In this document: positions 8,492 through 42,855 of the stretch, in pieces | Numbering within the stretch: the stretch's first letter is position 1 | How the letters are laid out: each line of letters starts with the position of its first letter | From: Nitrospiraceae bacterium | Lineage (GTDB): Bacteria > Nitrospirota > Thermodesulfovibrionia > Thermodesulfovibrionales > UBA6898 | DNA length: 42,855 nucleotides | Assembly (NCBI GenBank): GCA_003153275.1 | Contig: PLXX01000105.1 | Coordinates: forward strand, 1 to 42,855 | Direction: 5' to 3' | Position numbers and translations under genes: made by a program | The notes under the pieces: generated by a model | The model's input: only the letters and a program-made list of their open reading frames with translations | The model's database searches: none | What the model was told of the DNA's origin: nothing

Positions 8492-8521
8492 TTGACACAG
8501 TGTATTCTTCTGCGGTATAAA
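8492..8521 (+). promoter_or_regulatory. Sigma-70 type promoter of the cobalamin riboswitch leader
   Basis: TTGACA (8492-8497) and TATAAA (8516-8521) are separated by 18 bases and lie about ten bases upstream of the first riboswitch helix, exactly where a leader promoter is expected. Both hexamers are close to consensus. Confidence 0.75.
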
Positions 8522-8530
8522 AAAAGAGTT

Positions 8531-8690
8531 CAGGTGCCGTGAGGCATAATAGGGAATCCCGTGAGGTGTAAAAACCGATTCGGGAGCGGGCCCGCCGCTG
8601 TAATCGGGGACGAAAGCCGACTAAGCCACTGGGGTGAGAACCTTGGGAAGGCCGGCAAGTAGGATGAGCCGAGAGCCAGAAGACCTGCCT
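8531..8690 (+). promoter_or_regulatory. Cobalamin (adenosylcobalamin) riboswitch
   Basis: The conserved blocks occur in the right order: GGGAATCCCGTG, CGCCGCTGTAATCGGGGACG, AGCC then GCCACTGGGGTGAGAACC, TTGGGAAGG, and the B12 box around AGCCAGAAGACCTGCC. The closing helix P1 pairs CAGGT (8531-8535) with ACCTG (8683-8687). By family knowledge, bound cobalamin represses the downstream gene, usually for B12 synthesis or uptake or for a B12-independent isozyme. A strong terminator lies about 150 bases downstream (8835-8869), consistent with transcriptional control. The gene it controlled (from 8902) is broken, so the switch is intact but orphaned. Confidence 0.93.
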
Positions 8691-8834
8691 GTAAACACAG
8701 TGGTATGTTAGTGGTGACAGGAGATCATTTAGGCAATACCAAAATGAATCCTCTTTCACCCCTCACCATATCACTTCTCTACGGAACCTTACCGTGGCTG
8801 GAAGGAAAGAGGATGAAGTAAAGCAGGGTGCAAT

Positions 8835-9217: not shown

Positions 9218-9547
9218 ATTATGGACACAGAACAGGCCAAAAAAATATTTTCGTGCCGGCCCGCTCACGATATGCGGAGAATTTACAGAGGTCCATGACA
9301 AGAAAATAGCAATACTCCAGGCTAAGTTCGCTTAGTCGAATTGATTAATTCCTGGGAGGCATAAGTTTTGAATTATAAGGGCTGTGCAAGAAGTGTAAGT
9401 AAATAATTTTATGTTTATTTTGATTATGAAAAGCAATATGAACTGGAGGTGGGATTATGTGTGGTGTGGTGATTGGAGGCATTTTATTTCCATACTCTCG
9501 AGCTCATGGGACGAAAGAGGATTCAGTTTTCTTTTAGGAGGCATTGC
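9218..9547. other. Leader region of the efflux operon
   Basis: No supported gene. A short plus-strand frame from ATG 9221 (about 25 codons, beginning MDTEQAKKIF) lacks a ribosome site; a shift of frame would extend it through EVHDKKIAILQAKF to a TAG, so it may be a coding remnant. The stretch must hold the promoter of the CzcB-like gene, but I see no convincing hexamer pair. Confidence 0.3.
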
Positions 9548-10711
9548 ATGTCTATTTTAAATCAGTATCCGAAGCCAAAGCGCTTCGCCCTAATCGGCGT
9601 CGCGATAATCATTGTCGTGCTGGGCGGTGGGCTGGGCATACGCTTGCTAAACTCGCCAGGTCACGCGGCCGTGCAGGAGACTACACAGCCCGCTCTTGTC
9701 CATCAAGACGACAAATTTATAGTACCCGAGGGTTCTGCATTGCGTTTGCGGCTTGTCGTGCAACCGGTCGTCGTAAAGAAGAGCCCCCACACTCTCACGT
9801 TGCCGGCCGCTGTGGAGGCGGACCCCGCGCGCACGATCAACATTCTATCGCCGGTTGCCGGCAAAATGCTCAAGCTTAGCGTCAGTCTGGGCGACCGTGT
9901 TGTAAAAGGCCAGCCGCTCGCCGTTATCGACTCGGGCGATCTCGCACAAGCGTATGCTGATGACGACAAGGGACGAGATGCGTTGCAACACGCCGAGAGT
10001 ACCTTGGAGCGAGTCCGTGGTCTGCATAAATCCGGTGCTGGCTCCCTCAAGGATCTGGAGCAGGCCGAGAGTGATTATGCCCAGGTCAAGGCCGAGTTCA
10101 GAAGGGCCGAAGCGCGGCTCAAAGAAATCGGTGTTCCGTCCCAGCCCAAAGACGGGTCACGCCTCTTGACGCTTACTGCGCCAACGACCGGAAGCATCAC
10201 CGTGCTGGCGACCGCGCCAGGGGCATTCGTCAACGATCTAAACGCATCGCTCATGACGATTGCAAATCTCGATTCTGTTTGGGTTACGGCGAACGTGCCG
10301 GAGATTGATATCGCTCACATTGCCAAAGGGCAGTCCGTAGACGTGTCCTTTGCAGCCTACACGGGACAGGTCTTTCATGGTACTGTCGCATTCGTAAGCG
10401 ATGTGGTGGAACCAGACACTCATCGCAACAAGGTACGGATAGCTTTCTCCAATCAGGGCGGCAAGTTCAAACCCAATATGTTTGCCAACGCGAGCTTCAA
10501 TATACCGCAGGAATCCGCGGTGTTCGTACCGAATTCGGCCCTGCTTATGGATAACGACAGCACCGTCGTGTTTGTTGAGGTTGCGCCCTGGACTTTCATC
10601 AAGCGCCCAGTTCTGCCTGGCTACGGAGAGGGCGATGGCGCCCGCATCGACGAGGGGCTGAGTCCCGGCGACCGCATCGTCGTAAAAGGGGGAGTACTGC
10701 TCAGTGATTAA
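9548..10711 (+). CDS. czcB: RND efflux periplasmic adaptor (CzcB/CusB family)
   Basis: Membrane-fusion protein that links the inner-membrane RND pump to the outer-membrane channel and, in heavy-metal systems, may pass metal to the pump. A ribosome site AGGAGG at 9536-9541 sets the start at ATG 9548; an in-frame TTG at 9473 is far less likely. A short cytoplasmic N-terminus is followed by one membrane anchor (ALIGVAIIIVVLGGGLGIRL). Then come the split lipoyl/barrel-sandwich domain (TINILSPVAGKMLKLSVSLG and LTAPTTGSITVLATAPG) flanking an alpha-hairpin, the beta-barrel (VWVTANVPEIDIAHIAKG) and a membrane-proximal domain. Length, about 387 residues, is typical. It overlaps the next gene by eight bases, showing translational coupling. 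The gene's GC-rich codon use contrasts with AT-richer neighbours, suggesting transfer of the whole operon. The exact metal is not readable, so the symbol is by family. Confidence 0.88.
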   Translation: MSILNQYPKPKRFALIGVAIIIVVLGGGLGIRLLNSPGHAAVQETTQPALVHQDDKFIVPEGSALRLRLVVQPVVVKKSPHTLTLPAAVEADPARTINILSPVAGKMLKLSVSLGDRVVKGQPLAVIDSGDLAQAYADDDKGRDALQHAESTLERVRGLHKSGAGSLKDLEQAESDYAQVKAEFRRAEARLKEIGVPSQPKDGSRLLTLTAPTTGSITVLATAPGAFVNDLNASLMTIANLDSVWVTANVPEIDIAHIAKGQSVDVSFAAYTGQVFHGTVAFVSDVVEPDTHRNKVRIAFSNQGGKFKPNMFANASFNIPQESAVFVPNSALLMDNDSTVVFVEVAPWTFIKRPVLPGYGEGDGARIDEGLSPGDRIVVKGGVLLSD

Positions 10712-13700
10712 TCGTATCATCAGTATCTGCCTTCACAAGCGGCTCGTCGTATTGATGGTGGCAATCCTGCTGGCCGTTTTCGGCTATTACTCCTGGACAA
10801 AAATGGCGGTCGAGGCGTATCCGGACATCGGCGACGTCACTGCGCAGGTCACCACCCAGGCACCGGGACTGGCCTCCGAGGAAGTCGAACAACAGATAAC
10901 TATCCCGTTAGAGAGGGAGTTGGCCGGCACACCAGGATTGTCGAACATACGTTCGAGCAGCACTTTCGGTCTTTCGCTTATTACACTAACATTCCACGAC
11001 GGCGCCGAGGACTATTGGTCGCGCCAGCGGATCACGGAGCGCATTAATCAGGTCAACCTCCCTGCGGGCATCCAAGCGGGTCTTGATGCGGTATCAGGCC
11101 CTGTTGGCGAAATTTACCGCTATACGCTGGAGTCAGACACCAAGAATCTGATGGAGCTTTCGGAGATTCAGCGGTGGATGGTCATCCCGGCACTGCAGCA
11201 GGTCGCCGGTGTGGCCACCGTCAATAACTTCGGTGGTTTCACCATGCAGTATCAGCTAGAGCTTGATCCGGCCCAACTCCAACGTTACGGCATCGCCCTC
11301 AACGACGTGGTCACGGCGATCAACAACAATAGCTCGAATGCCGGTGGCAGCCGCATCTCGCGCGGCGAGCAGAGCTATGTTATCCGCGGTATCGGCATGG
11401 TGCGCACGCTTGGCGACCTTGGCAATATCGTCGTCACCCAACGCACCGGCGTGCCGATCCTGGTGCACGACCTCGGTAAGACTACATACAGCCATAAGGA
11501 GCGCGAGGGCATTCTCGGCAAGGACGCCAACCCCGACACGATAGAAGGCATCGTGGACATGCTCAAGTATCAGAATCCGTCGGAAGTACTGAAAGGCGTC
11601 CACGCCAAGGTTGCGGAACTGAGCAAACAACTGGGGCCCATGGGGGTGCGCATCGTTCCCTATATCGACCGGGACGAGCTGGTCCAGAATACTGTTGACA
11701 AGGTCTCCCATACCGTACTTGAGGGGATCGGCCTGGTGTGTATCGTGCTGATACTGTTTCTCGGCAGCCCGCGCAGCGCCTTGATCGCTGCGGTAACTAT
11801 TCCGCTGGCCCTGGTCGTAGTATTCATCGTCATGCACTTCACGAAGATGCCGGCAAACTTGTTTTCGCTTGGTGCGCTCGATTTCGGCATCATCGTGGAT
11901 GGCGCGATCGTGATAACTGAGGCCATACTGCGAAAACGCGAGGCGGATCCTGCGGCCACCTTGAGTGAGTCTGATGTATTTGCAGCAACGACACAGGTGG
12001 CGAGGCCGATTTTCTTTGCCACACTCATCATCATCACCGCCTACCTCCCGCTGTTTGCGTTTGAGCGGGCCGAAGCAAAGCTGTTTACGCCGATGGCTTA
12101 CACCGTTAGCTATGCCCTGTTTGGCGCGCTCCTGTGCGGCTTTACCCTGATTCCTGGCCTCGCCTATATGGCCTTGCGCAAACCACGACCGGTCTTCCAT
12201 AACCGACCGCTTGAATGGCTGCAAAATGCCTTTCGGCAGAACCTGGAGCGGATGCTGGCCACGCCTAAAATCGCCTACCTAATCGGTGTCGTGGCGTTCA
12301 TAGCTGTGATCGGTTTTGGTATAACCGCTGGCCGGGAATTCCTGCCCGAACTGGACGAGGGCGCCCTGTGGCTGCAAGTGCAATTGCCAACCGGACTAGC
12401 GCTCGACAAGGCCAGCGAGATGGCCGGGGAACTGCGTCGCACGTTGCGCGAATTCCCCGAAATATCTTATGCCGTCACCCAGCTGGGCCGTAACGATGAT
12501 GGCACTGACCCCTGGACGCCTTCCCACATCGAAGCACCTGTCGGCCTGAAACCCTACAATACCTGGCCCAAGGGGGAGACCAAAGAGGAGTTCATGCTCC
12601 GGCTCAACGCCCGCTTGCAGCAGTTGCCAGGGTTCTCCATCGGCATCAGCCAGCCGATCATCGACATGGTCGACGATGCAATCGGGGGCGCACATAGCCC
12701 GCTGGTCATCCGCATTGTCGGCGACGATTTCAACGAACTACGCCGTATCGGCAGCGGGATTGTCAACGTGCTGCACGGCATCCGTGGCACGGCAGACGCG
12801 TCCATATTTCAGGAACCTCCGATTCCACAGATAGCTATAAACATCGACCGCGCGGCAGCTGCCCGTTACGGCATCAACGTATTGGATATTACCAACCTGA
12901 TCCAGATCGGGATCGGTGGTGCATCGGTCAGTAAGGTCTATGTGGCCGACCGGACGTATGACGTTTCCGTGCGGTTTCCGCAAAATACCCGCAACAATCC
13001 AGAGGCGCTTGGGAATCTGGTACTGACTACCTCCAGCGGGGCGCAGATCCCGCTTTCCGAGGTTGCCCATATCAAGCAGCAGACCGGCGAAAGCACCATC
13101 TCGCACGAGATGGGCCACCGCGACTTGCTCGTCCGGATTGACAATCGAGACCGCGCCCTGTCCGATTACCTGGCAGAGGCTCAGCGCAAGATTGGCCAGT
13201 CAGTTAACTTCGATCACAGTAAATATCGCCTCGAATGGAGCGGGCAATTCGAAAACCAGCAGCGCGCACAGGCCCGCTTGACGCTGATCATGGTAATCGT
13301 ATTAGCACTTATGGCCATGTTCCTGTTTGCCGAGTTCGGTAAGATGCGTCAGGCGGTGCTGATCCTGGGTGCGGTTCCGCTGGCAGCCTTGGGCGGATTG
13401 ATCGCGTTGCACCTCACCGGCGAGACGCTGAATGTCGCCAGCGCTGTCGGCTTCATTGCGTTATTCGGCGTAGCTGTGCAAAACGGCATCATCATGATCT
13501 CCAATATCAACCGGGTGCGCGAGCAAGGCGTGCCGCTGCACGAGGCCGTTCTGTCCGGAGCGGTCGAGCGTTTCAGGCCAGTACTCATGACCGCTACCGT
13601 GGCGACCGTGGGTATGTTGCCCGCGGCCTTGGCCACCGGCATCGGCACCGATGTGCAGCGCGCGCTTGCCACCGTTGTAGTGGGCGGCTTAATGGTTGCT

Positions 13701-13793
13701 ACCCTGCTGACGTTGTTTATTCTGCCGACCTACTACTTCGCGCTGGAAAGATGGGTGGAACGTCGCCAAACCACAAAGAGAGAGGAAAAATGA
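10704..13793 (+). CDS. czcA: Heavy-metal efflux RND pump (CzcA/HelA family)
   Basis: Inner-membrane proton-driven pump exporting metal cations. The 1029-residue protein starts at GTG 10704 (MINRIISICLHKR), inside the end of the adaptor gene. It has the RND layout of two 6-TM halves with large periplasmic loops: TM1 (LVVLMVAILLAVFGYY), PLERELAGTPGLSNIRS, and the TM4 signature GALDFGIIVDGAIVITEAI. That signature carries the two Asp and the Glu typical of the CzcA branch of heavy-metal pumps rather than the drug-pump branch. The second half shows GREFLPELDEGALWLQ, and the C-terminal TM block has FIALFGVAVQNGIIM and VLMTATVATVGMLPAALATG. The protein looks complete. CzcA-type pumps handle Co, Zn, Cd or Ni; which of these cannot be told here. 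It overlaps the outer-membrane factor gene by four bases. Confidence 0.93.
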   Translation: MINRIISICLHKRLVVLMVAILLAVFGYYSWTKMAVEAYPDIGDVTAQVTTQAPGLASEEVEQQITIPLERELAGTPGLSNIRSSSTFGLSLITLTFHDGAEDYWSRQRITERINQVNLPAGIQAGLDAVSGPVGEIYRYTLESDTKNLMELSEIQRWMVIPALQQVAGVATVNNFGGFTMQYQLELDPAQLQRYGIALNDVVTAINNNSSNAGGSRISRGEQSYVIRGIGMVRTLGDLGNIVVTQRTGVPILVHDLGKTTYSHKEREGILGKDANPDTIEGIVDMLKYQNPSEVLKGVHAKVAELSKQLGPMGVRIVPYIDRDELVQNTVDKVSHTVLEGIGLVCIVLILFLGSPRSALIAAVTIPLALVVVFIVMHFTKMPANLFSLGALDFGIIVDGAIVITEAILRKREADPAATLSESDVFAATTQVARPIFFATLIIITAYLPLFAFERAEAKLFTPMAYTVSYALFGALLCGFTLIPGLAYMALRKPRPVFHNRPLEWLQNAFRQNLERMLATPKIAYLIGVVAFIAVIGFGITAGREFLPELDEGALWLQVQLPTGLALDKASEMAGELRRTLREFPEISYAVTQLGRNDDGTDPWTPSHIEAPVGLKPYNTWPKGETKEEFMLRLNARLQQLPGFSIGISQPIIDMVDDAIGGAHSPLVIRIVGDDFNELRRIGSGIVNVLHGIRGTADASIFQEPPIPQIAINIDRAAAARYGINVLDITNLIQIGIGGASVSKVYVADRTYDVSVRFPQNTRNNPEALGNLVLTTSSGAQIPLSEVAHIKQQTGESTISHEMGHRDLLVRIDNRDRALSDYLAEAQRKIGQSVNFDHSKYRLEWSGQFENQQRAQARLTLIMVIVLALMAMFLFAEFGKMRQAVLILGAVPLAALGGLIALHLTGETLNVASAVGFIALFGVAVQNGIIMISNINRVREQGVPLHEAVLSGAVERFRPVLMTATVATVGMLPAALATGIGTDVQRALATVVVGGLMVATLLTLFILPTYYFALERWVERRQTTKREEK

Positions 13794-15262
13794 CCATGCA
13801 TAGGCCCATAATCATCTTATGTATTATCTTGGCTGGATGTGCAGTCGGCCCTGATTTCCAACGCCCGACCACGCCCAATGTCGAGCGTTATACGCCCCAA
13901 CCCCTGCCTGCACAGACGGCAGCGGTTGAGATCAAGGGCGGCGAAGCGCAGCGCTTCGTGCAAGATATGGACATACCCGGTCAATGGTGGACGCTGTTTC
14001 ATTCGAAGCCGCTCAATGACCTGATCGAGCAAGCGCTCAAGGCCAACCCCGACTTGGAAGCCGCGCAAGCCGCACTGCGCGGTGCCTGGGAAAACGTCTA
14101 TGCACAGCAGGGTGCATTCTTTCCCAGCATCGAAGCCAACTTCAATCCAACGCGCCAAAAGATTGCCGGCACTCTGTCAAGTCCGACAGCCAGCGGCAGT
14201 TATATTTATAGCCTTCATACCGCACAGGTTGCGGTGGCCTATACACCGGATGTTTTCGGCGGCACGCGACGGCAGGTGGAGTCGCTGAAAGCGCAAGCCG
14301 ATTCGCAACGCTTCCAACTCGAAGCGACTTATCTTACGCTGACCTCGAATATAGTTGCAGCAGCAGTACAAGAGGCTGCTTTTCGAGGTCAAATCGCAGC
14401 GACCAAGCGGATCATAGACATCCAGAGGCAATCGCTCGAATTGCTGCAACGCCAATACTCGCTGGGGCAGGTAGCTACTTTGGACGTAGCAGCACAGGAA
14501 GCAGCGCTGGCACAAGTGCAGACCACGCTGCCGCCCTTGGAAAAACAATTGGCGCAACAACGCGACTTAATGACTCGTCTTGTCGGTCGTTTCCCCAGCG
14601 AGTCGCTCCTCGAAGAGTTCGAACTGTCATCTTTGCAATTGCCGCAAGAACTACCCGTGAGTCTTCCCTCCAAGCTCGTGGCGCAGCGGCCGGACGTTAG
14701 ATCTGCCGAAGAGCAATTGCACGCTGCCAGTGCAGAGATCGGCGTGAGTATTGCCAATAGGCTGCCGAATATCACCCTCAGCGCCAATGCAGGTTCCAGT
14801 GCCACAGCGATCAATCAGTTGTTCACCTCCGGCACCGGATTTTGGACATTGGCCGGCAATCTGGCTCAACCAATCTTTCAAGGAGGGACATTGCTGCACC
14901 GGCAACGTGCCGCTGAAGCGGCATACGACCTAGCGGCAGCGCAGTACCGCAGCACCGTGCTCACTGCTTTCCAGAACGTGGCGGACACGCTTCACGCCAT
15001 CCAATGCGACGCCGATACCCTGAAAGCGGCTGTTGCTGCCGAGCGTGCTGCCGGCAAAAGCCTTGCTATTGTGCGTTCTCAGATGGAATTGGGCGATGTC
15101 AGCTATTTGGCGCTGCTTACTGCCGAACAGATATATCAGCAGGCGGTGATCAATCTTGTGCAGGCCCTTGCCAACCGCCACACCGATACCGCGGCACTGT
15201 TTCAAGCGCTGGGCGGCAGCTGGTGGAACCGGTCCGATGTACCGGCAGGGGTTGTCCAATAA
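13790..15262 (+). CDS. Outer-membrane efflux factor lipoprotein (NodT/OprM family)
   Basis: The third part of the tripartite metal pump: a trimeric channel through the outer membrane. The ATG at 13790 overlaps the pump stop codon (ATGA); a second ATG at 13796 is possible. The N-terminus is a lipoprotein signal with lipobox LAGC just before AVGPDFQRP, the standard opening of NodT-type factors. The WWTLFHSKPLNDLIEQAL motif follows, then two repeated coiled-coil/beta-barrel halves (ANPDLEAAQAALRGA; RPDVRSAEEQLHAASAEIG). Length, 490 residues, is normal. No terminator stronger than a loose CCGGGC/GCCCGG pairing (15265-15293) follows. Confidence 0.92.
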   Translation: MTMHRPIIILCIILAGCAVGPDFQRPTTPNVERYTPQPLPAQTAAVEIKGGEAQRFVQDMDIPGQWWTLFHSKPLNDLIEQALKANPDLEAAQAALRGAWENVYAQQGAFFPSIEANFNPTRQKIAGTLSSPTASGSYIYSLHTAQVAVAYTPDVFGGTRRQVESLKAQADSQRFQLEATYLTLTSNIVAAAVQEAAFRGQIAATKRIIDIQRQSLELLQRQYSLGQVATLDVAAQEAALAQVQTTLPPLEKQLAQQRDLMTRLVGRFPSESLLEEFELSSLQLPQELPVSLPSKLVAQRPDVRSAEEQLHAASAEIGVSIANRLPNITLSANAGSSATAINQLFTSGTGFWTLAGNLAQPIFQGGTLLHRQRAAEAAYDLAAAQYRSTVLTAFQNVADTLHAIQCDADTLKAAVAAERAAGKSLAIVRSQMELGDVSYLALLTAEQIYQQAVINLVQALANRHTDTAALFQALGGSWWNRSDVPAGVVQ

Positions 15263-29220: not shown

Positions 29221-29794
29221 GCGTTTGTTTGCTCCTTTCGAGCGGACATTGTAACTTCAGCCGTTCATCATTCGTCTCGCACGCGAGAGTCATTTGTTAA
29301 CGTGGAAAATGCGACTTAGCGGGATGAAACAAACGTTCTCACGTCGTTTGAAAGATCTCATATTCCATTCGTAATCTTCATCGAGTTTCGTCCGTCTGAA
29401 ACTGCGGAGTCGTCGGTGCATCCGAGATAGCAACCTTCTTTACGCACGGACTTGGCACTGCGCGTATTACGGGGCGAAACTAATTTTCTCCGTAGTGGTG
29501 CCTGTCCTCCATCAATTATCGGGAAGAAACTGACATCGACCTCTCTCTTGTCGTACTCCAAGCTCAAAAAAAATGACCGTCTACATTGGACAGATCTCTG
29601 CATACTACGGGACGAACTCTTGCGGAGTTGCGTAGCCTGATATGTGTTTGTTATCAGGGAAGAAAGTATCGAAGCCAACATGATCAGAGACGGAATGTCC
29701 TTGAATACGGGCTTCGGTCAGATTAGAATAACATTATGAAATCCCGGATGCTTTGGTTGCACTTGTGATCGAGAAGAAAGTGGAGGGAGGGCAT
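29221..29794. other. Gap between the che operon and the rhodanese gene
   Basis: No supported gene in about 570 bases. Frames on both strands (for example 29358-29681 minus) lack ribosome sites and family motifs, and short plausible peptides appear in shifted frames, so the stretch may be a heavily decayed gene. No terminator for the che operon is obvious. Confidence 0.35.
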
Positions 29795-30196
29795 ATGAAA
29801 AAAGTGTTGTCGTTCGCAATTTTTGGAATTCTTATTGTGCTGATAGCTTGCACGAACATGCGAGGCGCGAACGATGTGCCCCGCATCGCAATAGACGAAC
29901 TGAAGGCCAAACTTGGATCATCGGATATGGTTCTTCTCGATGTAAGGGCAAAGAACGATTGGGATAAGAGTAATGAAAAGATTACGGGCGCCGTACGAAT
30001 GGACCCAGAGACCGTTGATGCCTGGGCTGGCACATTGCCGAAAGACAAGGATATAGTCCTTTACTGCGCCTGACCAAATGAAGGCACGAGCGCCCGTGTG
30101 GCGAAAGAACTGATTGTGAAAGGCTTCAAAGCAAAGGCTCTCAAAGGTGGTTGGAGAGAATGGTCCAAGGCCAAATACCCCGTCGAAAAGAAGTAA
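29795..30196 (+). CDS. Rhodanese-like lipoprotein with in-frame UGA in the active-site loop (candidate selenoprotein)
   Basis: Rhodanese-fold sulfurtransferase-like lipoprotein. GGAGGGAGG precedes ATG 29795, which is preferred to the in-frame upstream start at 29753. A lipoprotein signal ends in LIAC (Cys19). The rhodanese domain has LLDVRAKNDW (residues 47-56), an ITGAVRMD strand, and the active-site loop after DIVLY: Cys91-Ala92-UGA93-Pro94-Asn95-Glu96, then GTSARVAKELIVKGF, LKGGWREW and a TAA at 30194-30196. Many rhodaneses of this subgroup have Cys-x-Cys-Pro-Asn-Glu at this point, so the UGA falls exactly where a second Cys is expected. Without recoding the protein ends at 30073, losing its C-terminal 40 residues including the conserved GGW. 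With selenocysteine it is 133 residues. I favour a selenoprotein; the alternative is a Cys-to-stop mutation. Confidence 0.72.
30071..30099 (+). promoter_or_regulatory. UGA codon with candidate bacterial SECIS hairpin
   Basis: The UGA at 30071-30073 is followed ten bases later by GCACG (30084-30088) pairing with CGTGT (30095-30099, including one G-U) around the hexaloop AGCGCC. Bacterial SECIS elements are short hairpins just 3' of the UGA, often with G in the first two loop positions, as here. The stem is short, so this is suggestive only. Confidence 0.4.
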
Positions 30197-30505: not shown

Positions 30506-30630
30506 CCACTTCCTCTCGATTTGACATATCGGCTTATTTTCCCAATCGGAGCATGTAAAACTAGCAACCGGTAGGCTGTAACCCCTGCCAGTTATTATCG
30601 TCTAAATGGGTGAGAAAGGAGGTGAGGAAT

Positions 30631-31116
30631 ATGAAGAAATTGCTCAAGAATCTATCAGTCCTATCGCTCTTGTTTGGCGTGATAGTCGTAGGCGGAGTCT
30701 GTAAGGCAGATGCGGCCGGCTCCGGCCACAGGTTTGGTGAAAATATGGAGTTAATAGCCTCTCTCGATTTAAGTTTGGAGGAGCAAACAGCTCTGACGAC
30801 AGCTTTGTCGACCCACGGCCCCGCGGTTAAGACGGCGATGCAGGAATACCGTGCCGCAAAGAAACAGCTAAAAACGGATCTTCAGGCTACACCGCCTGCG
30901 GGATCCCTCCTCGCCGCTGATGCTGCAGCACTTGCATCCGCAAAAGCCCGGCTTAACGCTGCACGCGCCCCACTTGACAGTGCGCTTACTGCGGCACTCA
31001 CGCCGGCACACCTACAACAGCTCCAAGCGGCGCTCACCGCTCAGTTTCAGAGCAGGTTGGATAAAAAGACCGATCGTCTCCTGTTTGGATATGCCATGCA
31101 TCTGAAGAAACAGTAG
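30631..31116 (+). CDS. Spy/CpxP-like periplasmic protein
   Basis: A 161-residue exported, helical protein. AAAGGAGGTGA (30616-30626) supports ATG 30631. The signal peptide (LSVLSLLFGVIVVGGVCKADA) is followed by a domain with a short LDLSLEEQTAL motif and a C-terminal LTPAHLQQL segment, the LTxxQ-like pattern of the Spy/CpxP family, with a long Ala-rich helical pair between. Family members act as periplasmic chaperones or metal/stress sensors. The Ala-rich middle is unusual and similarity is moderate, so function is tentative. An inverted repeat (31161-31211) lies after the gene. Confidence 0.65.
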   Translation: MKKLLKNLSVLSLLFGVIVVGGVCKADAAGSGHRFGENMELIASLDLSLEEQTALTTALSTHGPAVKTAMQEYRAAKKQLKTDLQATPPAGSLLAADAAALASAKARLNAARAPLDSALTAALTPAHLQQLQAALTAQFQSRLDKKTDRLLFGYAMHLKKQ

Positions 31117-36410: not shown

Positions 36411-37298
36411 TTATTTGACTTCATCATCTTTTGCTACCGGAACCAGCTTATTCACAGCGTTTATCATGTCAGAGTCTACTATCTTGGTATATTTCTTTGT
36501 CGTATCCAGCGATTCATGCCCCATGATTTTTGCTATGGTAACAATGCTCTCCTTTTTTCTAAGTAAAGCTGTTGCAAAGCTATGCCTCAACATATGAGGA
36601 TGGACGCGAACTCCCGCTGCCTCACCGATACTCTTAATCTTACGCCACGCACTTGAATAAGAGTAAGGAAACAGCTTCACATATCCCTTCACATATTTGG
36701 TATCGAGAAATCGCATATACCTTTCCAGCACTTCAACTGCCTCGCTGTTTAGAGGGATGGTGCGTACCTTTCCGCCCTTTCCCAATACTCTAATCCATAC
36801 GTTCCTGGAGATCACGCCGTTCTCAGATAGTTCTCTCACCTGGATGTCTTCCTTTTTCAGCCCCAGCAACTCACTTATTCTAAGGCCGGCGTTAAAGAGA
36901 AGAACAAGTAAGGCCCTATCTTCAATCGATAAAGCATTCTCCAAAAGCAGGTCATAATCAAATGCATCGAGTGGATCGGGGTCGCCAGCTCTAACGACAG
37001 GCCTTAAATCCTTCACATCAAGGATATCAAGAGGCTTGAGATGAAATTGTTTATCCAAGAATTTCAGATAATTACACAAAGCCGATAGCTCGCCGGCAAT
37101 GTAAGAACTCTTTCTACCATCCCTGGCGAGCTGCATCTTGTATTGACTGAAGTCTCTCAATGTCAGCTCTTGAACAGCCTTGTCTCCCGTTTTGTTGATA
37201 AACCTGTTAAGGCTCCCTCCATATGAGGCAACTGTTCCGAAAGAGAGTTTGCCCATGATAAAATTGAGGAATTCTTCTTTACTCTCTGATAGCTTCAT
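36411..37298 (-). CDS. XerC/D-type tyrosine recombinase
   Basis: A 295-residue site-specific recombinase that looks complete. The core-binding domain (SYGGSLNRFINKTG; YIAGELSALCNYLKFL) is followed by the catalytic domain with Arg in NAGLRISELLGLKKEDI, Lys in LGKGGKVRTIPL, His-x-x-Arg in HPHMLRHSFATALL, and His and the Tyr nucleophile in MGHESLDTTKKYTKI. It lies 100 bases after the four-gene recombinase operon on the same strand but is not overlapped with it, and its start has only a weak ribosome site. It may be an independent integron-like or phage-type integrase, or an accessory of the island. Confidence 0.9.
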   Translation of the reverse strand: MKLSESKEEFLNFIMGKLSFGTVASYGGSLNRFINKTGDKAVQELTLRDFSQYKMQLARDGRKSSYIAGELSALCNYLKFLDKQFHLKPLDILDVKDLRPVVRAGDPDPLDAFDYDLLLENALSIEDRALLVLLFNAGLRISELLGLKKEDIQVRELSENGVISRNVWIRVLGKGGKVRTIPLNSEAVEVLERYMRFLDTKYVKGYVKLFPYSYSSAWRKIKSIGEAAGVRVHPHMLRHSFATALLRKKESIVTIAKIMGHESLDTTKKYTKIVDSDMINAVNKLVPVAKDDEVK

Positions 37299-37398
37299 AT
37301 CTCACCCACTGCACAACCAGATGTAGCTCGATTTATTCTCTGCCGCATATGCCTCCCAATGAATACAATTATCCGCTCATATTTCTTTAAGACACTTT

Positions 37399-37884
37399 TC
37401 AGTGAGAATCGTCAGCGGCCACCGCCTTCAGGGGTCTCACTTTTGCAAGCTGTCCTTTAAGCTCTTCCCTTTCATACTTTACCGTTTCCAAATCCTTTTG
37501 CAGATATCTCAGCTTGGAATCGAGAGAGGCAACAGAAGTTGCCAGCTTCGCCTTGTCATCCTGCAATTCCTTGATAACCTCCCGCAGTTCTGCAACCTTG
37601 TTCTCTGCATCAATAAGCAGGGGTTTGCGGCGCATCATCGGTATTTTGGTCTCATACTTCTCTGCCTTGACCATTTGGAGGATGTCTCGATGATTGTACA
37701 AGGTCCCTCTATCCACGCCAGCTTCTTTGCTTACACTTGCGGGGCTGATAGGGGTACCCTTCTTCACGCTTGTAGGCGCATTCTTTTTAAGTCGCTGGAG
37801 AGCCTCTATCAGGGCATTGCGGGAAGCGATCTTCTTTTGATCCGTACCTTTCCTGAGGGCCTTCGGATTACCCGAATTGGTCAT
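37399..37884 (-). CDS. ginD: GinD/TnpC-like HTH and coiled-coil protein (DUF6262-like)
   Basis: A 161-residue accessory protein. The N-terminal half has a helix-turn-helix (PASVSKEAGVDRGTLYNHRD) and the C-terminal half is a long coiled coil (ELREVIKELQDDKAKLATS; LRYLQKDLETVKYEREELKG). Such small proteins follow the recombinases in Tn554-like elements (TnpC) and GInt islands (GinD), where they are thought to help choose or orient insertion. Its ATG overlaps the preceding recombinase stop by four bases. The symbol is by architecture and position. Confidence 0.75.
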   Translation of the reverse strand: MTNSGNPKALRKGTDQKKIASRNALIEALQRLKKNAPTSVKKGTPISPASVSKEAGVDRGTLYNHRDILQMVKAEKYETKIPMMRRKPLLIDAENKVAELREVIKELQDDKAKLATSVASLDSKLRYLQKDLETVKYEREELKGQLAKVRPLKAVAADDSH

Positions 37885-39704
37885 ACGGCCTCCTTCATGT
37901 TTAGTATGCTTTCATACTCCCACCCCATTCTTTTGAAGACGGGTAAAATTCTCTCATCGACGATCTTCTGAGTAAAGGCCTTCTGCAATCTTTTCAACGG
38001 CAGATTTAGGAGTCTGACATTCTGCGTGAGATAAACCTCCCAATTTCCCCGGTGTTCCTCAGTTATTACGGCATTATCGCACTCCAGGGAATTGCATTGG
38101 CAATTGAGTCCCGCATCGCATTTTGCGTGTGTAGCATTGTAGAAACAGAGGTTATAAAATGCTGAACGCACATAAGTTTCATCACTCTCCACAACATACT
38201 GTTTAAGAGCTTCGACCCTGTCTTTAGCCGTCATGCCCGGATATATTTCTTCGCGCAACTGCTCAATACGTTCTCCTCCGGCGCCGCCAAGCCTCGCTCC
38301 GGAATCCAACACCTTTTCGAACTCAGTGTAATAAACTTCTTCACAAGCACCATTGACCTCATTCTTAAGATCCTCATCCGAAGTGAGTGCATACCAGAGA
38401 GTCATGTCCATACTTACATGCTTAAACTGGTATTGCAGGAATTTGAGGTTGCACTTATTCACCACAGCCATGAAATATGCAAAAGACTTTCTGAACTGGT
38501 GAGTAGAGAGTTTCCATTTTTTGCCCTCATACAAACCCAGGTCATCACTAGTCATAAACTTATTGAGGGAGCTATTTATAGCATGTACTGACAGTTGTCC
38601 TATGGGACCTTTTTCTCTGCTTAAAAATAACAGGTCCTTTCCAGAAGCAGTTCTCAACGGCTCAGAGAGTCTTTCCAGAGCTTTCACTGCGCTAACTACA
38701 CATTCTGGCACAAGCCATGTGTCATGAGGAGTTGGTATCTTGTGACAGAAGCTGTGTAATAGATAATAATCCTTGCCGTTACTGCCCATGCGTGTCTCTA
38801 TAGCGTCTTTCTTGATGCTCAATACCTCGCTGCCCCTCATGCCGCTAAAGTAGGCAATGACTATGTAGCATGCGGTACGGAGCATCTTTTTCATTTTATG
38901 GTGCTGTGTAAGAGTAATGCCGTATGCCTTGATACTCCTATTCACTAATGTGTTATAAGTGGTCTTACTCTTCCCAGGCATTTTAGCTTTCAATGCGGCT
39001 ATTTCGTCGCTTATAGAAAGAATCTGCTCAGCCTTCTCTTCAGTGAAGTCAAAAGCTGCACGCAAAAGCTCTTCGGATACCCTATCTGGTATGCGCAGGG
39101 TCTTTGCCTCTTCTTTATCTTTCCTGGTCGCTCCGGCGGCTGCATTAGCGGTCTGTCCCTTGAACGGTCGGACAGTAATAGCATCAGTTAGCTTATCCCT
39201 CTGAAGATGGATATCTGTTACAACCTGCAGAATCTTATTTAGTGTTGTCTTTTTCAGCCTGCCTTTTTCGTCACCCCGTCCATGCTTAGCCTTCCTATTT
39301 TTTTGGTAAATGTGGAACTTCGATGTGACGTGAGCATCGAGCTGCGAGAAGGCACAATAGCCGTTTGTTATCATCCACTGAATCAACAGTCGGAGATGCA
39401 TGAACACGTTAATAACAGTAATATACTTTGGAGCTTTTCTCCCTTCAATTGGATCCGCAATCAAGGAGAATATGAAGTCTTTTGCGCTTTCCATGAGCGG
39501 TGCATGCTTCGGATCGGAGAACAGTTCTCCATTATCCAACGTGAAGTCCCACTTGACGCGCTTATGAGATTCTTTCACCGGAGTATCGATAAACTTTTGA
39601 AAATTCCATTCCATATGCCGATACAAAGAGTCTGGAGAGACGGGCAAATCTGCCTTCTTGTCTTTTGGAATGTCACGTATAGGCTGTGCTGCATGAAGGA
39701 TCAT
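37881..39704 (-). CDS. ginC: Large tyrosine recombinase, third of a trio (GinC-like)
   Basis: About 607 residues from ATG 39704, which overlaps the stop of the preceding gene (ATGA) and has GGAGGAGGGG before it; a longer frame to 39761 is less likely. The catalytic domain has Arg in AYFSGMRGSEVLSIKKDAI, a candidate Lys in HKIPTPHDTWLVP, His-x-x-Arg in THQFRKSFAYFM, and a late HVSMDMTLWYAL with the Tyr. Towards the C-terminus five Cys (about 520, 529, 535, 537, 542) form a putative zinc-binding cluster. It is twice the size of XerC/D, as in TnpB-like proteins of Tn554-type elements. Confidence 0.83.
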   Translation of the reverse strand: MILHAAQPIRDIPKDKKADLPVSPDSLYRHMEWNFQKFIDTPVKESHKRVKWDFTLDNGELFSDPKHAPLMESAKDFIFSLIADPIEGRKAPKYITVINVFMHLRLLIQWMITNGYCAFSQLDAHVTSKFHIYQKNRKAKHGRGDEKGRLKKTTLNKILQVVTDIHLQRDKLTDAITVRPFKGQTANAAAGATRKDKEEAKTLRIPDRVSEELLRAAFDFTEEKAEQILSISDEIAALKAKMPGKSKTTYNTLVNRSIKAYGITLTQHHKMKKMLRTACYIVIAYFSGMRGSEVLSIKKDAIETRMGSNGKDYYLLHSFCHKIPTPHDTWLVPECVVSAVKALERLSEPLRTASGKDLLFLSREKGPIGQLSVHAINSSLNKFMTSDDLGLYEGKKWKLSTHQFRKSFAYFMAVVNKCNLKFLQYQFKHVSMDMTLWYALTSDEDLKNEVNGACEEVYYTEFEKVLDSGARLGGAGGERIEQLREEIYPGMTAKDRVEALKQYVVESDETYVRSAFYNLCFYNATHAKCDAGLNCQCNSLECDNAVITEEHRGNWEVYLTQNVRLLNLPLKRLQKAFTQKIVDERILPVFKRMGWEYESILNMKEAV

Positions 39705-41563
39705 AACCCCTCCTCCAAGAGATGCTGAGCGACGATAATCTTCGCATCCCACTGGGGGCAAGGGATTTTCAGGGCCTTTCTCCTGGCACCTTCAACAACC
39801 TCTGCTGGGAACCTTGAAGCGATATTATTTATCAGCCGAATATCACTGCCAAATGCCTTTTCGAACTGTTCAGTGGACATGAGATCACCTCCACCAATCT
39901 TGATAAGGCTGTTTTGATAAGAAAAGATTTTGGTCAGGTCTTCACTGGTTATAAGGCTATGTCCGCATCTCAGGCAGGCATGGAATCTGCTGCACATCTT
40001 CCCCTCCTGTTCGCCTTTCAAGGGCGAGTTCAAGGGGTTCATGCATTTGCTCAAAAAGGTGTCGAAATCACCGGAGAGAAGCCTGCCGGCCTCTTCTTTC
40101 GATATGTCTAGCTCAGAGGCCACATCACCAACCACTATCCTGGCCTTCATTTCGCTCTCATGCGCCGAAAGGTCAGCAGCGGCGTTTTCCAACATCTCAG
40201 GCATCATCGCTGCGGAGACATATTGCTGTGTCGTAGCAATAGACGAATGACCGAGAAGTTGCTTCAACTTCACTAAGTCACCCTTGGTCTTCAGAAATGC
40301 TTCCGTGGCGAACGTGGGACGTAATCGGGCAAGGTTAAGTTTGAGCGGCTTTCCGTCGTCATCCCGGATATCGTGTTTCTTAACGAAAACGCTTAGTGCA
40401 TGCAAAACAGCACTGCCTCCCAAATTCAGCCGTCTTATGTCTCCTTTCCGGCCCCGGTACAGCCACACAAAATCTTTCATGTGCTCACCGGCTTCCGCCG
40501 CCAGGACCCCGGTTAATTCCAAAACTCGCTCGACAATTGTAACGCAGCGCGGACTGTGCTTAATCTTCTGAACCGACTTGCCCCGAGCCTTACGCATTTC
40601 GACATGTCTTCTTTTAGTCAAAGGCTCATACTTAATACAATCCCTCTCCATGTCCTTTATCGCCCCTGGATTTCCGCCGGACAGGTAGGTATAGACCAAC
40701 ACAAAAGGAACCAGCATTTCTTGTCTTGTGCCGGCCCATGCACCCAATAACTCCCACACTTTGCGAAGACCGCCGTGATAAATGCCAGCAGCCTTCATGA
40801 AAGTTCCGTGCCCCAAGTTCCGAATTTCCTTGGGAACCCTGTATTGACAATCAAGGAGATTCTCAAAATACCATATCATATTGTCAAAATCCTTATATAG
40901 ACTTCGTCCGCTTCCTCTCAGCCCGCGCGGATCAACGCCTTTTCCCGTCTTGACGTAAGGTGTTTCAACCTTCCGATATATCTCTTCGAGGTCAACTACT
41001 ATTGCTTTGATAAGTTGACCAATTACCTTCGGAGAATACGCATCGCGGTGACGCTGTTGAGCATTGCTTCCCGGGAAAGGGTTCACAGGAAAAGCCAGAT
41101 CCGCAGAGACTTCTTCGGGGTAGTGACGCATAAGATATACCAGCAAAGCCTTAACAGTGACATATCCATTTATTTGAGAACCGACTACCCACTTCGTGTG
41201 ATCCTTTAGCCATCTTATATACATCTTTATGATGTAACGATCTATCTGCCTAAGTTCGTATATCGGCCGATCTGATTTTTGAATCTCATCCAAAAATCGC
41301 CAGAAAACCCTCATTCCTTGTCTATAACCCTCAATTGTGGCAAGGCGGCTTTTCCCTTTGAGCTTCCATATAGACTCAACAAACCACATGGCGAGCTGAG
41401 GCCTGGTATAAAATTCCGTGAAATTGAACTCCTTCGCGCCTTCCTTTCCCTTATCAATACAAATGCTCTTCTTGCTAATTGGCACAACATTGTCATCATT
41501 GTATTGCTGAAGCGGATTAGGCTTTTCTTCCTGGTAGACTACTCTCAGCCTCGTCTTATCCAT
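39701..41563 (-). CDS. ginB: Large tyrosine recombinase-like protein, second of a trio (GinB/TnpB-like)
   Basis: A 620-residue member of the tyrosine recombinase superfamily. The C-terminal half retains LRPTFATEAFLKTKGDL and LLGHSSIATTQQYVSA with the late His and the Tyr nucleophile, and a Lys-containing KARGKSVQKIKHSP. Two positions are off: the first catalytic Arg region reads YLSGGNPGAIKDM, with Asn where Arg is usual, and the His of His-x-x-Arg is Ala (LARLRPTF). Four Cys (about 507, 524, 530, 533) suggest a zinc site after the catalytic domain. The start at 41563 overlaps the first recombinase by eight bases. It may act only together with its partners. Confidence 0.8.
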   Translation of the reverse strand: MDKTRLRVVYQEEKPNPLQQYNDDNVVPISKKSICIDKGKEGAKEFNFTEFYTRPQLAMWFVESIWKLKGKSRLATIEGYRQGMRVFWRFLDEIQKSDRPIYELRQIDRYIIKMYIRWLKDHTKWVVGSQINGYVTVKALLVYLMRHYPEEVSADLAFPVNPFPGSNAQQRHRDAYSPKVIGQLIKAIVVDLEEIYRKVETPYVKTGKGVDPRGLRGSGRSLYKDFDNMIWYFENLLDCQYRVPKEIRNLGHGTFMKAAGIYHGGLRKVWELLGAWAGTRQEMLVPFVLVYTYLSGGNPGAIKDMERDCIKYEPLTKRRHVEMRKARGKSVQKIKHSPRCVTIVERVLELTGVLAAEAGEHMKDFVWLYRGRKGDIRRLNLGGSAVLHALSVFVKKHDIRDDDGKPLKLNLARLRPTFATEAFLKTKGDLVKLKQLLGHSSIATTQQYVSAAMMPEMLENAAADLSAHESEMKARIVVGDVASELDISKEEAGRLLSGDFDTFLSKCMNPLNSPLKGEQEGKMCSRFHACLRCGHSLITSEDLTKIFSYQNSLIKIGGGDLMSTEQFEKAFGSDIRLINNIASRFPAEVVEGARRKALKIPCPQWDAKIIVAQHLLEEGL

Positions 41564-42692
41564 CAGCCTCTCCGTACCCTGCTATTGTCTGAAAAAACAT
41601 TTTGTTGAAGTGGTCAAACAGCAGTTCTTCTCCCAGTTCCACATCTGCATCAACAGTGTGCACATATTTTGCCGTCGTTGTTGGACTGGAATGCCCGAGG
41701 AGCTTTTGCAGCCTCGCCAGGTCTTTTGTGCGGTGGTAATAGTTATAGGCGAAGGTGTGGCGGAAAATGTGCGGATTGGCCCTGATCCTGGTTACTTTGG
41801 AGACCGCTCTCATAATGTTGTTGAAAGTACCTTTCTTGAGCTCAGTCCCAGTGCGTGTCAACCATAGTTTGTCTGTTGTCGTTGCGTTTTTATGTTTATA
41901 CTTTTTAAGCAGCGCCGGTCGCTCCCATACTATGTACTTATGCAGCTCGTTAAGAGTTGTTTTACTTATAAATACGGTCCTTTGTTTCCGCCCTTTACCG
42001 ATAACGGTAATAGGCGCTTTTTTGTGTGACCTGTAAATTGATGGATCTGGTATTTGATTTACGGTTAGATCAATCATCTCCTCCCGGCGCATCCCAGACT
42101 CTAGCATTATGGCGACTTCCAGTTGTTCTCTCCTTTTGAGTATTTCCAATATCGCAACAACCTGGGGTTCCAGCAGGAAATCATAATCTCTCTTATACTG
42201 CCGCAAATGCATATCACTCACTTCCATCGTCCCACCAGAGGCGTCAACATGCTTGAGGAACGTATCCGACCTGTTCACCCGGACTGTACGCATGCTAAAG
42301 GGGATATGGTCAATCAGCCCTTCCGTAAATGTCCACTTGTAGAATTGCAAAATAATGGTCAGTCTACCGTTGATAGTGCTTATCTGATAATCTCTGCCAT
42401 GGACATTCGGGTTTTGCTGCATAGCGTTTCTGTAATTTGCGATATCCCTAACTGTTGCTTTCTCCCAGTCATACCCGAAAGTATCAAGCCACTGGACGAA
42501 ATGATAGAGACCGTAGGCATAAGTTTTCCATGTGTTCTGACTTCTTGTCCGGCCAGATTCTATGCATACATATTCGAGGTATCCATTGATGGGACTCAAA
42601 GGGATCATTTCCTTGTCGAGAAGAAAAGGAATCCCGGGTTGTGGCTGCCCGGCAACTACAAAATCGGCCGTCGTAAAGAATAACTCCGCCAT
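41556..42692 (-). CDS. ginA: Tyrosine recombinase, first of a trio (GinA/TnpA-like)
   Basis: A recombinase of about 378 residues from ATG 42692 (MAELFFTTADF); a longer frame to 42743 has a poor start and overlaps the promoter. The N-terminal domain (TWKTYAYGLYHFVQWLDTFG) is followed by a complete active site: Arg in MLESGMRREEMIDLTV, Lys in IGKGRKQRTVFIS, His-x-x-Arg in PHIFRHTFAYNYYH, and LLGHSSPTTTAKYVHTVD. It is the most canonical of the trio and opens the operon. A -10 box lies six bases before the ATG, so its mRNA may be leaderless. Confidence 0.87.
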   Translation of the reverse strand: MAELFFTTADFVVAGQPQPGIPFLLDKEMIPLSPINGYLEYVCIESGRTRSQNTWKTYAYGLYHFVQWLDTFGYDWEKATVRDIANYRNAMQQNPNVHGRDYQISTINGRLTIILQFYKWTFTEGLIDHIPFSMRTVRVNRSDTFLKHVDASGGTMEVSDMHLRQYKRDYDFLLEPQVVAILEILKRREQLEVAIMLESGMRREEMIDLTVNQIPDPSIYRSHKKAPITVIGKGRKQRTVFISKTTLNELHKYIVWERPALLKKYKHKNATTTDKLWLTRTGTELKKGTFNNIMRAVSKVTRIRANPHIFRHTFAYNYYHRTKDLARLQKLLGHSSPTTTAKYVHTVDADVELGEELLFDHFNKMFFQTIAGYGEADG

Positions 42693-42698
42693 ATCTAC

Positions 42699-42704
42699 AT
42701 TATA
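42699..42704 (-). promoter_or_regulatory. Candidate -10 box of the recombinase operon
   Basis: A perfect TATAAT on the minus strand ends six bases upstream of the ATG at 42692. No good -35 hexamer at 16-18 bases is seen, and no ribosome site separates box and start codon, which suggests a leaderless transcript. Confidence 0.45.
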
Positions 42705-42855
42705 CAACACTTTATGATTGATTATAGCTGTTATTATTAACAAATACTGATAATATCTAATATGAATATAATATATGCTCTTAAAGAACAGAGGTAGAAA
42801 CAGAGAGACTCAACTCCCTTTCTTCAACACTTATCCAATATGATATAACATGTCG

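Follow-up and report, generated by a model that had tools for sequence, protein, structure and literature searches.

The gene at positions 29,795 to 30,196 (+ strand) of the DNA analysed here, a stretch of 42,855 nucleotides referred to below as the window, is very probably a genuine selenoprotein gene of a known family, the CxU rhodaneses of NF041203. Its single in-frame UGA, at codon 93, almost certainly encodes selenocysteine (Sec), as judged by comparison with homologues. The gene is a well-supported, predicted membrane-anchored addition to this selenoprotein family, for which no functional test was found in the accessible literature. The window makes up contig C24 in a genome of 2.52 Mb and 82.5% completeness.

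The rhodanese gene, its UGA codon and the host machinery

The frame comprises 133 codons, from an ATG at 29,795 to a TAA at 30,194–30,196. Codon 93 (30,071–30,073, + strand) is its sole in-frame TGA, and 40 sense codons lie between it and the TAA; the translation reads ...IVLYCA up to the UGA and PNEGTSARVAKELIVKGFKAKALKGGWREWSKAKYPVEKK from there to the TAA. The UGA falls in the active-site loop, Cys91-Ala-UGA93-Pro-Asn-Glu, in which Cys91 (TGC, 30,065–30,067, + strand) occupies the canonical persulfide position of rhodaneses. The Pfam rhodanese domain PF00581 covers residues 34–125 and spans the UGA (E = 2.1e-13). Frame and domain thus confirm what the preliminary description had reported, a single UGA in the active-site loop at codon 93 and a continuation of 40 codons to the TAA; routine annotation would end the protein at 92 residues.

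Two further features on the + strand were read from the sequence only. A Shine-Dalgarno-like GGAGGGAGG lies just 5' of the ATG, at approximately 29,782–29,790, and the first codons (29,795–29,851) would specify a type II signal peptide with the lipobox LIAC (L16-I17-A18-C19), the residue to be lipidated being Cys19. Lipoboxes are present at the same place in the nearest homologues (FIGC, LISC, FVAC and VIAC).

An AlphaFold model of the window protein has the rhodanese fold, with a core pLDDT above 95. Cys91 follows the strand formed by residues 86–90, and the helix of residues 94–108 starts right after Sec93. Among solved folds in the PDB, the nearest are rhodanese domains, some of them from NADH- and CoA-dependent persulfide reductases, and structure comparison resolves the protein no finer than 'rhodanese'.

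All of the genes needed for Sec insertion that the preliminary description had named for checking (selA, selB, selC and selD) are present in the genome. Contig C79 has selA next to selB (610.8 and 374.3 bits), selD is on contig C49 and has its own in-frame UGA in SSCAGUAAKF (L008:830-1900), and tRNA-Sec is on contig C50 (67.9 bits against a gathering threshold of 47). UGA is the terminator of 11 of the 20 listed open reading frames in the window; the code is therefore standard, and the UGA in the rhodanese gene needs a specific recoding signal. Across the order, selA was also found in 39 of the 40 genomes that have a TGA homologue, a co-occurrence that is weak evidence because most of the order's genomes (153 of 176) have selA in any case.

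Homologues, selection and the downstream hairpin

Homologues at E ≤ 1e-10 were found in 45 of 176 genomes of the order; the majority have a single TGA and some have a pair. Further homologues were added from a search of 396 genomes of the phylum with the NF041203 model. The set used below consists of 88 oriented and de-duplicated sequences with the loop form CxU, UxU, CxC, UxR or CxR; more distant matches with an ordinary rhodanese loop (CxS, CxG and gapped forms) were omitted. It contains 52 CxU, 16 UxU and 18 CxC forms, together with one UxR and one CxR, so that codon 93 is TGA in 68, Cys in 18 and Arg in two. Neither TAA nor TAG occurs at position 91 or 93 in any of the 88, and none has Trp at codon 93; in the family alignment both columns are described as invariantly Cys or Sec. 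The alternation of TGA with Cys at residue 93 is the pattern that the preliminary description had proposed to look for in support of recoding.

The nearest homologue is L019, with 81% identity; it shares the TGA and belongs to a different family of the order. TGA occupies this codon in the closest homologues from other genomes, so UGA93 is not there by chance. In the order search, four genomes from the same genus as the window lacked the rhodanese gene, which, together with the placement of L019 in another family, suggests gain and loss or transfer. A search of the genus with 8 kb of DNA gave partial matches only (62–91% identity), mostly inside a signalling gene at about 27.8–29.2 kb, and a separate contig scan gave a single distant Cys homologue only. 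Elsewhere, CxU rhodanese genes occur as tandem pairs some 100–130 bases apart (G188:C67, G218:C25 and G424:C176).

Between the window gene and L019, dS is 0.44 and dN 0.08 over the 40 codons after the UGA (NG86), similar to the values before it (dS 0.52, dN 0.10), and further comparisons, among them the UxU pairs L065/L066 and L067/L068, give similar results. By this measure the frame 3' of the UGA is under purifying selection; a decaying tail would look different.

A SECIS-type hairpin, CGCC-[CGUGU]-GGCG, is predicted at 30,091–30,103 (+ strand), with its loop at 30,095–30,099 starting 21 nt after the UGA. When the loop was allowed to start anywhere from 12 to 24 nt past the UGA, most Sec forms were found to share one hairpin, with a 5-nt loop starting exactly 21 nt past it. 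Of six stem pairs, the CxU genes form 5.02, and synonymous shuffles that keep the protein fixed give 3.67 ± 0.14. CxC genes also exceed their shuffles (4.72 against 3.58 pairs, z 5.1), so pairing alone is not Sec-specific, and the protein motif A-R-V-A accounts for part of it. A cleaner signal comes from the loop codon. Loop position 2 is G in 52 of 52 CxU forms, and loop positions 1–3 are the eighth codon after Sec; among Arg, Ser and Gly codons there, this GU-bearing codon has T as its last base in 60 of 63 Sec forms and in one of 14 Cys forms (Fisher p = 4e-11, a value that is too small because related sequences are counted as independent; the pattern spans families). Only 18% of the other Arg, Ser and Gly codons of the CxU genes end in T.

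In the window copy, the conserved hairpin has a short stem of 4 bp (−4.2 kcal/mol), and a rival 5-bp hairpin at 30,084–30,099 is slightly stronger (−4.8). By single-sequence folding, the stretch after the UGA in the window folds no better than dinucleotide shuffles (z −0.01); the hairpin signal appears only in the family comparison. At that level, a bacterial SECIS-type hairpin with apparent selection on its loop sequence adds independent support for the Sec reading, which the preliminary description had put forward and which the sel genes and the TGA/Cys alternation likewise support.

Two other explanations of the UGA are each very improbable on this evidence. A broken or miscalled gene, with its TGA placed by nonsense mutation or sequencing error, might be expected if the gene were dispensable, as its absence from the four same-genus genomes would allow, and the hairpin of the window copy is short; but 68 of the 88 homologues, drawn from several families and classes, have this TGA and none has TAA or TAG there. 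This, the purifying selection downstream, and the selection of a synonymous GU loop codon only in TGA forms all speak against accident, and for the family as a whole this explanation is already refuted. Stop codons are read through at low level in bacteria, and the UGA could in principle yield Trp or some other ordinary residue, or the protein could function in its 92-residue form; against this, UGA alternates with Cys (18 cases) and never with Trp, it ends 11 of the 20 listed open reading frames in the window, and the short product would lose a conserved C-terminal part of the rhodanese fold, as seen in the model.

Relatives with two probable selenocysteines

Sixteen homologues have TGA at both position 91 and position 93 (L040, L044, L050, L062, L063, L065–L068, L075, L099, L108, L109 and L123–L125), and most of these have the same downstream hairpin. 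Several score above the NF041203 cut-off, namely L040 (166.5), L050 (159.5), L099 (142), L108 (138.4) and L044 (126). The UxU forms are scattered on the tree: the label needs 10 changes, of which well-supported branches force at least six, so the canonical persulfide position, too, has repeatedly switched between Cys and Sec. All of these genomes were examined as assemblies; that the form turns up independently in many of them argues against error. No selA was seen in G054, the genome that carries L040, which is only 90% complete.

We therefore consider it probable that the CxU family includes a recurrent double-Sec form in which Cys91 is replaced by Sec, with a possible vicinal diselenide site and one hairpin serving both UGAs. 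A full-text literature search for selenoprotein, rhodanese and UxU together returned no paper, Zhang & Gladyshev 2005 and Haft & Tolstoy 2025 being outside its reach, and a 2026 review (PMC13188914) gives only one Sec for the CxU rhodanese family. The UxU form thus seems less familiar than CxU, and no priority is claimed.

Two apparent losses of the second Sec were also observed. L061 is UxR (CGA), in a genome that also has a UxU paralogue, and L127 is CxR (AGA) beside a CxU sister; each of these Arg codons is one base away from TGA.

The UxU variant lies outside the window and is the part that deserves specialist attention. Together, the CxC, CxU and UxU forms and the CxR and UxR losses make up a compact natural series on the effect of selenium at two active-site positions, and the UxU genes offer a test case of one SECIS hairpin with two UGAs six bases apart.

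Possible function and relation to known systems

The rhodanese gene of the window stands by itself, with a chemosensory cluster on one side and a gene with a Metal_resist domain (30,610–31,116, downstream) on the other. No thioredoxin gene was found beside it among the genes scanned, and the flanks of the nearest homologues have nothing in common with the window, so that gene order is not conserved; the neighbours give nothing firm on rhodanese function. Near three homologues, TlpA/ResA-like thioredoxin genes, identified by reading their sequences, lie downstream of the rhodanese gene (L029:2756-3286, L033:2742-3266 and L083:1999-2502, in the orientation of that gene); two of these loci are from one lineage and the third is separate. 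The window has two other features of note. At the contig end, open reading frames at 36,411–42,743 (− strand) include three of the phage-integrase family (tyrosine recombinases) and resemble a recombinase-module mobile element, and a cobalamin riboswitch (RF00174, 111.6 bits) at 8,515–8,706 (+ strand) lies upstream of an RND efflux gene set (9,473–15,262).

A periplasmic cycle of persulfide or thiol redox chemistry is suggested by the placement of Sec next to the persulfide Cys, by the exchange of Cys and Sec at both positions, and by the TlpA-like neighbours. We put it forward tentatively, at somewhat less than even odds, with every chemical step inferred. Its starting point, the decoding of UGA93 as Sec by the host SelA, SelB, SelD and tRNA-Sec with the aid of the short downstream hairpin, is well supported by comparison, and the product is predicted to be exported and anchored through a lipidated N-terminal Cys. 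In the proposed cycle, a periplasmic donor would supply sulfane sulfur, another chalcogen or an oxidant to Cys91, and Sec93 would attack the persulfide or oxidised Cys91, freeing the reduced product and leaving a Cys91–Sec93 selenenylsulfide, which a periplasmic thioredoxin-like protein of the TlpA/ResA type might re-reduce.

Only a little less plausible is a classical sulfur or selenium transferase, rather than a thiol or persulfide reductase, with Cys91 as the persulfide or perselenide carrier and Sec93 as acceptor or relay. In rhodaneses the position of Cys91 is the one that canonically carries sulfur, and the nearest folds include sulfurtransferase as well as persulfide-reductase rhodanese domains. 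The replacement of Cys91 by Sec in 16 homologues and the TlpA-like thioredoxins near three of them fit redox cycling better, although both are still compatible with transfer. A role in acting on metal or metalloid oxyanions (chromate, selenite or arsenate) at the envelope is unlikely: the second NCBIfam match is to the ChrE chromate-resistance rhodanese, and a Metal_resist gene lies downstream, but that match is far under its cut-off (49.8 against 120) and that gene is not a conserved neighbour.

Among known systems, ExtH of Geobacter sulfurreducens (gsu2940) is a rhodanese-like protein of an ext cluster tied to selenite and tellurite reduction and to cytochromes (PMC5877670). Its description sets it apart from the window protein, as that paper gives a mass of 49 kDa and does not call it a selenoprotein, and no ext-type genes were found near the window rhodanese gene. 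TsoB (NF045694, rhodanese/DsbD fusion-like, UxxxxU) also has a rhodanese domain with Sec residues, but differs in motif and architecture, and the window protein scores 23.7 bits against its cut-off of 805. The CxC rhodaneses of the same phylum (e.g., L110–L120) share the loop, which in them reads YCACPNE with Cys at both positions, and are related to the window gene on the tree, but they are without the UGA and without the selected GU codon in the loop, and mostly have longer open frames, of 310–480 amino acids.

The closest system is NF041203 itself (an NCBIfam equivalog model, rhodanese_LYCAU, 'rhodanese-related (seleno)protein'), which the window protein matches over residues 13–133 with 166.6 bits against a cut-off of 115 (E = 1.8e-49), with the LYCAU motif at residues 89–93. 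A CxU rhodanese was first predicted in 2005 (Zhang & Gladyshev 2005, as cited in PMC13188914), and Table 1 of that review lists a 'Rhodanese-like domain-containing protein form 3' with CxU and one Sec (TKB26178.1). Given the model match and this entry, the window gene is an added member of a known predicted family. The suggestion in the preliminary description that a lipoprotein form may be new is not sustained, as the model and the review already name this rhodanese and the anchor is common to the nearest homologues; the word 'lipoprotein' is absent from the main text of the review. The predicted anchor is also present in L019–L023, and other members have a signal peptide without a lipobox or no signal peptide, so on these readings the anchor is one of several localisations within the family. 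The window gene shares with NF041203 and the form 3 rhodanese the domain, the LYCAU motif and the Sec position; nothing essential differs, and the window copy has a lipobox.
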